Assembly: GCF_900105615.1 (NCBI RefSeq)
Contig: NZ_LT630003.1
Span: forward strand, 1,426,001 to 1,490,000
DNA length: 64,000 nucleotides
Direction of reading: 5' to 3'
Source: Lacrimispora sphenoides JCM 1415
GTDB taxonomy: Bacteria; Bacillota; Clostridia; Lachnospirales; Lachnospiraceae
Shown here piece by piece: positions 7,493 through 10,047 of the stretch (position 1 is its first letter; each line of letters begins with the position of its first letter). Under the pieces are notes generated by a model that was not told the origin of the DNA, did not search any database, and saw only the letters and a list, made by a program, of their open reading frames with translations. A program made the translations under genes and the position numbers.

Positions 7493-7565
7493 TTGTAACC
7501 ATCATTGATGCAATCAATGTAACCATCGTTCTATCCATCATTGTAACCATCGTTCTATCCTTCAT
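7493..7565. repeat. imperfect 23-nt tandem repeats in a long intergenic gap
   Basis: TGTAACCATCGTTCTATCC occurs at 7519-7537 and 7542-7560 (period 23), with a third degenerate copy (TTGTAACCATCATTG) starting near 7493. The whole 7413-7942 gap holds no convincing gene; besides these repeats it contains a hairpin and the SOS promoter listed next. Confidence 0.8.
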
Positions 7566-7713
7566 TGTATCCAGCTTTGCAAGGTTTCTAAACTCCAGCC
7601 GATTGCTTCAATCAGATGGCGCATGACGGAGCGGAATTTAATGGATATGTGCCGGAATAGCAGATGGTCAACCGCAAGGGGGCGGGGCTTTAAGATTTCA
7701 GGTTTATGAATTG

Positions 7714-7861: not shown

Positions 7862-7931
7862 GAACATACATTCGAAAATACTTGAAAAAAAGATTTGCCT
7901 ATGCTACAATAAAAGAAAAGAACGTGTGTTC
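7862..7931 (+). promoter_or_regulatory. SOS-type promoter: -35/-10 plus LexA box
   Basis: TTGAAA (7882-7887) and TACAAT (7905-7910) have a 17-nt spacer. GAACGTGTGTTC (7920-7931) is a perfect match to the Gram-positive LexA/DinR core GAAC-N4-GTTC and sits between the start point and the RBS (GAGGTG, 7932-7937). A second, one-mismatch site GAACATACATTC (7862-7873) lies just upstream of the -35 box. The arrangement predicts LexA repression and induction by DNA damage. Confidence 0.8.
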
Positions 7932-7942
7932 GAGGTGATGAA

Positions 7943-9271
7943 ATGCTGATTCAGGAAGAATTAACGATACAGGAAAAGCTTGAAATATTATCAGATGCCG
8001 CAAAATATGATGTTGCCTGTACCTCCAGCGGAGTGGACCGAAAGGGAAAAGCAGGGACGCTCGGGAATGCGGCGGCATGCGGAATCTGCCATAGCTTTTC
8101 TGCAGATGGCAGATGTATATCCCTTTTGAAAATATTGTTTACCAACCAGTGCATTTATGACTGCAAGTACTGCATCAACCGATGCTCTAACGATGTTGTG
8201 AGAACAGCGTTCACACCTGAGGAGGTGTGCCAGCTGACGATCCAGTTTTACCGCCGCAATTATATTGAAGGGCTGTTCCTCAGCTCGGGAGTCCTTCACA
8301 GTGCGGACTATACCATGGACCTGATTTATCAGACCATTAAAAAGCTGCGGGAGGAATACCATTTTCACGGTTATATCCATGTAAAGGCTATTCCGGGTGC
8401 AGATCCGGTATTGATCGAAAAAACAGGTTTTCTGGCAGATCGTATGAGTATCAATCTGGAACTTCCCACTGCCGACGGACTTAAGAAGCTGGCTCCCGGC
8501 AAAAGCAGGAGCAAGATTCTTACTCCCATGAAGCAGATTCAGAAAGGAATTACGGCTAATCGTTACGAGCTGATGGAATACAAAAAGGCTCCGTCCTTTG
8601 TGCCCGCCGGTCAGAGCACACAGATGATTGTGGGAGCCACTGGGGAAAATGATTTCCAGATGATGATGGTAGCAGAGGCGCTTTATCAGAATTATGATTT
8701 AAAACGGGTTTTTTATTCTGCATTTGTTCCAGTCAATCAGGACAGCAGTCTGCCGGCTCTTCCTGGGGGGCCTCCCCTTTTGCGGGAACACAGGCTGTAC
8801 CAGGCAGACTGGCTCATGCGTTTCTATGGATTTCAGGCGGGAGAGCTGCTTTCCGAAGCTCGCCCTAATTTCAATGTATTTCTGGATCCAAAGTGTGATT
8901 GGGCTTTGCGCCATCTGGAATTATTTCCAGTGGAAGTGAATCGTGCAGACTATTATACCCTCCTGAGAGTTCCCGGAATGGGAGTGAAGTCGGTGAAGCG
9001 TATCGTTGCAGCCAGAAGGAATGGTCCGCTTGATTTTGATGCTTTAAAGAAGATTGGTGTTGTATTGAAGCGTGCGCTTTACTTTATTACCTGTTCCGGC
9101 AGGATGATGTATCCCGTTAAGATTGAGGAGGACTTTATTACCAGTCACCTCGTGGGAGAGGAACATAAAAAAGTATGGGATATCGGCTCATCAGGAACCT
9201 TCCGGCAGCTTTCTTTGTTTGATGACATGAATATACCTGCTTTGACAGATTGGGGAGGAGTCCGTCTATGA
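7943..9271 (+). CDS. putative DNA modification/repair radical SAM protein
   Basis: 442 residues. The radical SAM cluster motif is CIYDCKYC (about residues 70-77), C-x3-C-x2-C, which would bind a [4Fe-4S] cluster and SAM; two more Cys (CGIC, about 50-53) precede it. The C-terminal part has a helix-hairpin-helix DNA-binding element (LLRVPGMGVKSVKRIVAARR, about 336-360), as in DNA repair enzymes. This combination matches the family annotated as 'putative DNA modification/repair radical SAM protein', almost always found next to a DUF4130/uracil-DNA-glycosylase-linked gene, as here. The chemical reaction is not established to my knowledge. The ATG at 7943 has GAGGTG 5 nt upstream. The stop codon overlaps the next start (ATGA), indicating translational coupling, and the promoter carries a LexA box. 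Confidence 0.9.
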   Translation: MLIQEELTIQEKLEILSDAAKYDVACTSSGVDRKGKAGTLGNAAACGICHSFSADGRCISLLKILFTNQCIYDCKYCINRCSNDVVRTAFTPEEVCQLTIQFYRRNYIEGLFLSSGVLHSADYTMDLIYQTIKKLREEYHFHGYIHVKAIPGADPVLIEKTGFLADRMSINLELPTADGLKKLAPGKSRSKILTPMKQIQKGITANRYELMEYKKAPSFVPAGQSTQMIVGATGENDFQMMMVAEALYQNYDLKRVFYSAFVPVNQDSSLPALPGGPPLLREHRLYQADWLMRFYGFQAGELLSEARPNFNVFLDPKCDWALRHLELFPVEVNRADYYTLLRVPGMGVKSVKRIVAARRNGPLDFDALKKIGVVLKRALYFITCSGRMMYPVKIEEDFITSHLVGEEHKKVWDIGSSGTFRQLSLFDDMNIPALTDWGGVRL

Positions 9272-10047
9272 AGACAGTCTATTTGTGTGAGAACAGCGTG
9301 GAAGGCATTCTCAGCGGTGTGTACGCGGCATGGACCAGCAGAAAGGGACATGGGAATGTGAAACTTGGGCTTATAGGGGATGAGGATACTATGGAGCTGT
9401 TCTGCCAGTACGAGGAGGTTCCGATCAATGCCCAGAGTGTTGATAAGGTGGTACAGGCTATCAGAGGGAAGATTTCAGAGGAAGCCTATATTGCCGTATA
9501 CAAGGCTGCGTTAAGTAAGGAAAGAGACCGTGGGGATAAAATATACCGTTTTCTAATTTACGGTTTTCATTATGGTGCAAAAATTGTTCATATGCTTCAG
9601 GTTCAAGAGGTATACGATATATTTCAGATATGCCGTAATATTGATAATGAGACTCATTTGCTTACAGGCTTTGTGCGGTTTGTGGAGATGGAGGGCGATC
9701 TTTTGGTAAGCAGGATCGGACCAAAGAATGATGTACTTGTTCTTCTTGCTCCTCATTTTATGGACCGCCTGTCAGGAGAGAATTGGGTTATCTATGATGA
9801 AAACAGGAAAAAGGCAGTTTTACATCCGGCAATGCGGCCTTGGTTTTTGGTGGATTTAATTTCGCCGGAATGGGAAAGGCGAATGAAAAAAGCGTCGGAT
9901 GAAGACGAATATGAGGAACTTTTTCAGCACTTTAGAAAAAGCGTTTCCATAAAAGAACGGACAAATCCGGTTTGTCAGCGTAATCACATGCCGCTCCGTT
10001 ACCGGGCCTATATGCCTGAATTTTCCCATGGTTTAAAGGATTCCTGA
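9268..10047 (+). CDS. DUF4130 / TIGR03915-type putative DNA repair protein
   Basis: 259 residues from the ATG at 9268, which overlaps the stop of the radical SAM gene and has GGGGAGG upstream; a TTG start six codons earlier would sit on that RBS and is rejected. The sequence carries the DUF4130 features: an N-terminal YLCENSVEGILSGVYAAW segment, a central TGFVRFVEM segment and a C-terminal ERTNPVCQRNHMPLRY. In other bacteria the domain is either a stand-alone partner of the radical SAM protein or fused to a uracil-DNA glycosylase, so a role in the same DNA repair or modification step is well supported by context. No catalytic residues can be assigned. Confidence 0.88.
   Translation: MKTVYLCENSVEGILSGVYAAWTSRKGHGNVKLGLIGDEDTMELFCQYEEVPINAQSVDKVVQAIRGKISEEAYIAVYKAALSKERDRGDKIYRFLIYGFHYGAKIVHMLQVQEVYDIFQICRNIDNETHLLTGFVRFVEMEGDLLVSRIGPKNDVLVLLAPHFMDRLSGENWVIYDENRKKAVLHPAMRPWFLVDLISPEWERRMKKASDEDEYEELFQHFRKSVSIKERTNPVCQRNHMPLRYRAYMPEFSHGLKDS

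Follow-up and report, generated by a model that had tools for sequence, protein, structure and literature searches.

A radical SAM/DUF4130 gene pair of Lacrimispora sphenoides as a predicted LexA-controlled SOS operon, and its relatives in other clades

Described systems and the locus compared with them

For the CAC3343-CAC3344 pair of Clostridium acetobutylicum, control by LexA was predicted from footprinting and expression data, in one species and with expression measured under butanol/butyrate stress, not DNA damage (PMC3828012, 2013); the orthology of that pair to the one described here rests on annotation. The regulatory idea is therefore not new. A COG1573-COG4277 operon has been described as SOS-regulated in Bacteroidetes, in a paper that cites earlier reports of the same combination in Verrucomicrobia and Alphaproteobacteria and presents it, likewise, as a two-gene LexA operon, but with a uracil-DNA glycosylase family protein (PMC8565304, 2021). 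In contrast, the pair studied here has no glycosylase domain, none is present in the host, and DUF4130 stands alone. PMC3765255 also mentions DUF4130, in the company of glycosylases and of radical SAM proteins that resemble SplB, and our search of the open-licence literature on DUF4130, UdgX/radical SAM, the TIGR accessions and COG4277 found no experiment on the pair.

So far, the role proposed for TIGR03916/TIGR03915 has been based on their link with a glycosylase domain; LexA control in clades with different LexA recognition is separate evidence for a role in the DNA-damage response. We take COG4277 to be the radical SAM/HhH family of our protein, and the Bacteroidetes operon apparently matches the type of operon found here. 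New in this work are a switch of motif between clades, two preferred spacings of the boxes and a six-cysteine array in the radical SAM protein, together with a predicted RecJ/Cdc45-like fold of DUF4130 lacking a catalytic motif and crosslinking-type UdgX signatures in the alpha- and betaproteobacterial fusion proteins.

The operon (Table 1) lies in a stretch of 64,000 nucleotides, hereafter the window, and is followed by yifB and dprA. The sequence-only reading had claimed a promoter with a 17-nt spacer, a perfect GAAC-N4-GTTC core between the start point and the ribosome-binding site, a second site with one mismatch further upstream, and a translationally coupled gene pair, and all of these were found at the locus: the −35 element TTGAAA (7882-7887) and the −10 element TACAAT (7905-7910) are 17 nt apart, and the start of the DUF4130 gene overlaps the radical SAM stop codon through ATGA. 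Promoter-like matches in the examined stretch are at chance level (6 found, 5.9 expected). Further upstream, at 7500-7570, there are short direct repeats around TAACCATCGTTCTATCC, which are the source of two TAACCATCGTTC matches to the LexA core with one mismatch.

Table 1. Predicted features of the operon and their positions in the window
Feature	Position	Strand	Remark
Distal LexA-like site GAACATACATTC	7862..7873	+	one mismatch to the core; precedes the proximal box by 58 bp
Sigma-70-type promoter TTGAAA-N17-TACAAT	7882..7910	+	10/12 matches; TG before −10
Proximal LexA box GAACGTGTGTTC	7920..7931	+	perfect GAAC-N4-GTTC; predicted from sequence
Ribosome-binding site GAGGTG	7932..7937	+	abuts the 3' edge of the proximal box
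Radical SAM ORF (TIGR03916), 442 aa	7943..9271	+	ATG at 7943
TIGR03915/DUF4130 ORF, 259 aa	9268..10047	+	ATG at 9268

LexA boxes in the host, in Bacillota and in other clades

Perfect GAAC-N4-GTTC cores are rare in the 5.3-Mb host genome, which has 44 of them, two in the window, where the second (21921) falls inside an ABC-transporter ORF. All 44 were inspected, and by a mechanical test 13 lie outside any ORF of at least 120 aa, among them one in the lexA/yneA-like divergent region, which has three one-mismatch cores besides, one that is 15 bp from the recA ATG, one that is 38 bp ahead of the first possible start codon of uvrB, and that of the radical SAM/DUF4130 pair. In NCBIfam searches, the host LexA scored 237.2 bits (cut-off 110.95) and RecA 561.1 bits on a cut fragment (cut-off 325.3); UvrB, also a cut fragment, reached 514.6 bits, under its cut-off of 743, and YneA 57.4 bits, slightly under the cut-off of 60, hence the label "yneA-like". 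Because the same motif stands at lexA/yneA-like, recA and uvrB, the LexA circuit of the host uses GAAC-N4-GTTC, so that the operator in the promoter of the pair matches the host's own motif, as had been anticipated for its lexA and recA promoters.

Other sites of the host genome deserve mention in their own right. Two perfect cores stand 69 bp apart (L086:1001-1012 and 1070-1081; host C1:3283600 and 3283669), with no candidate ORF of at least 60 aa starting within 150 bp, and may mark an SOS gene for a small RNA or a peptide. Another (L088:932-943; host C1:1999131) precedes by a few bases the possible start of an ORF of about 90 aa, a candidate SOS gene. Near lexA, beyond the yneA-like gene, there is an ORF for an EF-G/ribosomal-protection-like GTPase (L087:1345-2701), cut by the end of the stretch, that scored 330 bits to tet_protect (cut-off 775).

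The box was expected to recur in orthologous promoters, and it does. TIGR03916 scored over its cut-off in 87/150 Lachnospiraceae genomes, at 88 places, 85 of which were fetched (three partial ones were omitted); four loci whose start was not located were dropped, leaving 81 upstream regions of 200 bp. A core with at most one mismatch was found in 79/81, a perfect one in 42/81 and two or more cores in 61/81, against means of 4.77, 0.16 and 0.11, respectively, in dinucleotide shuffles. In the same 81 regions, GAAC ranked first among the 256 possible half-sites, and enrichment was seen for a half-site spacing of 4 only. Control regions of the same loci (n = 81) gave 1 perfect core and 5 within one mismatch at −400..−200; for +200..+400, within the gene, the counts were 1 and 21, and for +600..+800 they were 0 and 4. 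Among named genome records, a core within one mismatch was present in 46/47 mostly Lachnospiraceae loci and in 22/33 others; these loci lie partly on the same contigs as the Lachnospiraceae set (e.g., L103 and L031), and the two sets are therefore not independent.

In a wider sample of Bacillota, TIGR03916 was over cut-off in 65/299 genomes, and 63 upstream regions were usable after two had been dropped (short or masked); the window locus itself is counted both in these 63 and in the 81 above. Cores with at most one mismatch were present in 46/63 and perfect ones in 18/63, the remaining 17/63 having no core within one mismatch. In the main TIGR03916 subfamily of this sample the cores are mostly one-mismatch only (11/34 perfect). 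The motif within one mismatch also occurs upstream of lexA in 20/22 Bacillota loci (220 bp; a raw count, beside the shuffle-controlled counts for the pair), these being what was left of 30 loci from 27 genomes after eight had been dropped for lack of an ORF by the search pattern. Twenty core-less upstream regions were read by eye; several have two-mismatch sites and others nothing recognisable. The orthologues L153, L154, L162 and L170 (Gemmiger, Faecalibacterium and Ruthenibacterium) have no GAAC-N4-GTTC within one mismatch, and there the LexA motif or the control itself may have changed. In a low-scoring TIGR03916 subfamily of the Bacillota (L311-L323), a core within one mismatch is present in 12/13 and lies, by eye, between −35 and −10 in 8/13.

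Two distances between boxes recur. After identical sequences had been removed, 155 upstream regions remained, in which neighboring cores with at most one mismatch were 24-30 bp apart in 36/119 cases and 54-63 bp apart in 42/119, whereas random pairing of positions gives 7% and 12%, respectively. The two boxes of the window, 58 bp apart, fall in the longer class, and cores at −81 to −84 are also found in the relatives L005, L017, L024 and L091.

Outside the Bacillota the motif is replaced by others. In 21 loci from plasmid and phage collections, hand-picked to span genera and thus not random (60 of the 158 plasmid records were listed), GAAC-N7-GAAC stands upstream in 13/13 alphaproteobacterial loci (0.035 in shuffles) and CTGT-N8-ACAG in 3/3 betaproteobacterial loci (0.01 in shuffles), sequences which we take to be the LexA boxes of Alpha- and Betaproteobacteria. 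Neither group has the motif of the other or GAAC-N4-GTTC in these 13 and 3 upstream regions; elsewhere in the loci, the alpha-type site turned up once more across the 13 alphaproteobacterial loci and twice across the 3 betaproteobacterial loci. One Lachnospira record carries GAAC-N4-GTTC, and in the Acinetobacter, Fusobacterium, Spirosoma and Gemmatirosa records none of the three motifs is matched perfectly; in the Fusobacterium record (2.1 Mb) there was neither a LexA match nor a box upstream. It appears, then, that relatives in other clades carry their own clade's version of the SOS switch. Given the rarity of the core, its conservation, the host regulon and the change of motif, LexA control of the radical SAM/DUF4130 operon is very likely, with nearly as much support as sequence can give.

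The two proteins and the UdgX fusion

The radical SAM protein belongs to TIGR03916 (rSAM_link_UDG) with 698.9 bits, against a curated cut-off of 343.5, and its place in the radical SAM superfamily is given by the CX3CX2C motif (C70/C74/C77) and the predicted fold; the Pfam Radical_SAM match (26.1) is under the cut-off of 29.5, as is that of the helix-hairpin-helix near residues 330-363 (21.9; cut-off 27). C26, C49 and C58 are conserved too and complete the six-cysteine array, in a region that is poorly modelled (pLDDT <50). Lipoyl synthase and HydE are solved radical SAM folds close to it, a likeness that shows no function, and our protein differs from both in the spacing of its cysteines and in the C-terminal helix-hairpin-helix. 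Spore photoproduct lyase (SplB) is not among the 50 fold matches listed, an absence that excludes nothing.

Its partner scored 236 bits to TIGR03915 (curated cut-off 112.25) and 168 bits to the Pfam DUF4130 family (cut-off 27), and sequence search returned no solved relative at E<1. The predicted fold resembles RecJ/Cdc45 and is the one feature that may hint at a relation to the DHH/DHHA1 phosphoesterases (RecJ, NrnA); Cdc45 is a non-catalytic part of the replisome. A catalytic DHH nuclease was rejected, since no Asp or His is common to at least 75% of 26 sequences in the N-terminal half (residues 1-110) and there is no Pfam DHH match.

Wherever the annotation of an alpha- or betaproteobacterial locus extends to the next gene (11 loci), that gene is annotated as a UdgX family protein, and in the two fusions scanned TIGR03915 and TIGR03914 were both over cut-off in one protein. 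GEQPG was present in 8/8 fusion proteins inspected; the R-loop ends, by eye, in His in 8/8 (exactly KRRIH in 3/8), and motif B is HPS/HPT in 6/8 and HPA in 2/8. PMC10359453 names these motifs of UdgX and its covalent attachment to abasic DNA, and the fusions share with the UdgX described there the GEQPG and the His-ending R-loop. In contrast to these fusions, the host genome has no TIGR03914 match, so that a host UdgX was discarded as a partner of the pair, and DUF4130 is without UdgX in the Acinetobacter, Spirosoma and Bacillota loci. The pair must therefore work without UdgX there, and a uracil or abasic lesion does not follow for the host.

Proposed mechanism and alternatives

The reading that we favor, with good confidence, is that of a LexA-repressed SOS operon whose two products act jointly on damaged DNA. 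In the undamaged cell, LexA would occupy the proximal box (about +3 to +14, for a transcription start 7 nt past the −10 element) and block transcription, perhaps with the help of another dimer on the distal site, 58 bp away; upon damage, cleavage of LexA, stimulated by RecA, would free the promoter. The products would be an iron-sulfur radical SAM enzyme, whose helix-hairpin-helix would bind DNA, and its DUF4130 partner; we infer that the two jointly use radical chemistry on damaged DNA. That the pair serves in handling damaged DNA is likely, though a shade less firmly indicated than LexA control. The alpha- and betaproteobacterial partner carries a fused UdgX, a type of glycosylase that turns uracil into an abasic site and bonds covalently to that site, and a damaged or deaminated pyrimidine would therefore be the likeliest lesion in those clades.

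A more far-reaching version, taken as a whole, is tentative: an SOS enzyme of wide occurrence, which has stayed under LexA in clades with at least three recognition sequences, might repair a lesion not yet recognised, with a second iron-sulfur cluster on the N-terminal three-cysteine site of the radical SAM enzyme, DUF4130 as a non-catalytic RecJ/Cdc45-like subunit and UdgX, where present, as a covalent lesion sensor. If true, spore photoproduct lyase would be joined by a second kind of radical SAM enzyme that repairs DNA. LexA control in clades with differing recognition makes the question of the lesion testable, and the lesion, if found, would establish a new chemistry of DNA repair by radical SAM enzymes.

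Among the alternatives, the one that survives best accepts LexA control and replaces lesion repair by the modification of DNA or RNA, or by an aid to translesion synthesis during SOS. It is rather unlikely. In its favor, no family member with tested activity was found in the literature searched, and the predicted fold of DUF4130 resembles RecJ/Cdc45; against it, the UdgX fusion in Alpha- and Betaproteobacteria and the helix-hairpin-helix motif suggest that the substrate is damaged DNA, and we would still place repair before other modification. Much less probable is that the box marks a mobile or phage-derived module induced by damage and not core repair. Relatives were indeed found on 158 plasmid records and 10 phage-collection records, but 142/158 of the former are typed as non-mobilizable and some records of both kinds look chromosomal (plasmid records of 2-4.6 Mb; glyQ/glyS beside the Acinetobacter copy), while the frequency of TIGR03916 in the family (87/150 genomes), the neighboring yifB and dprA, and the lack of a PADLOC match for the pair, for which anti-phage defence was also discarded, speak against such a module. 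A chance or non-functional match to the LexA box, an idea to which the unenriched one-mismatch sites of the whole window lend something (26 found with at most one mismatch, 19.7 expected), is highly improbable and is ruled out as mere chance by the conservation of the box, the half-site ranking, the spacing controls and the change of motif between clades.
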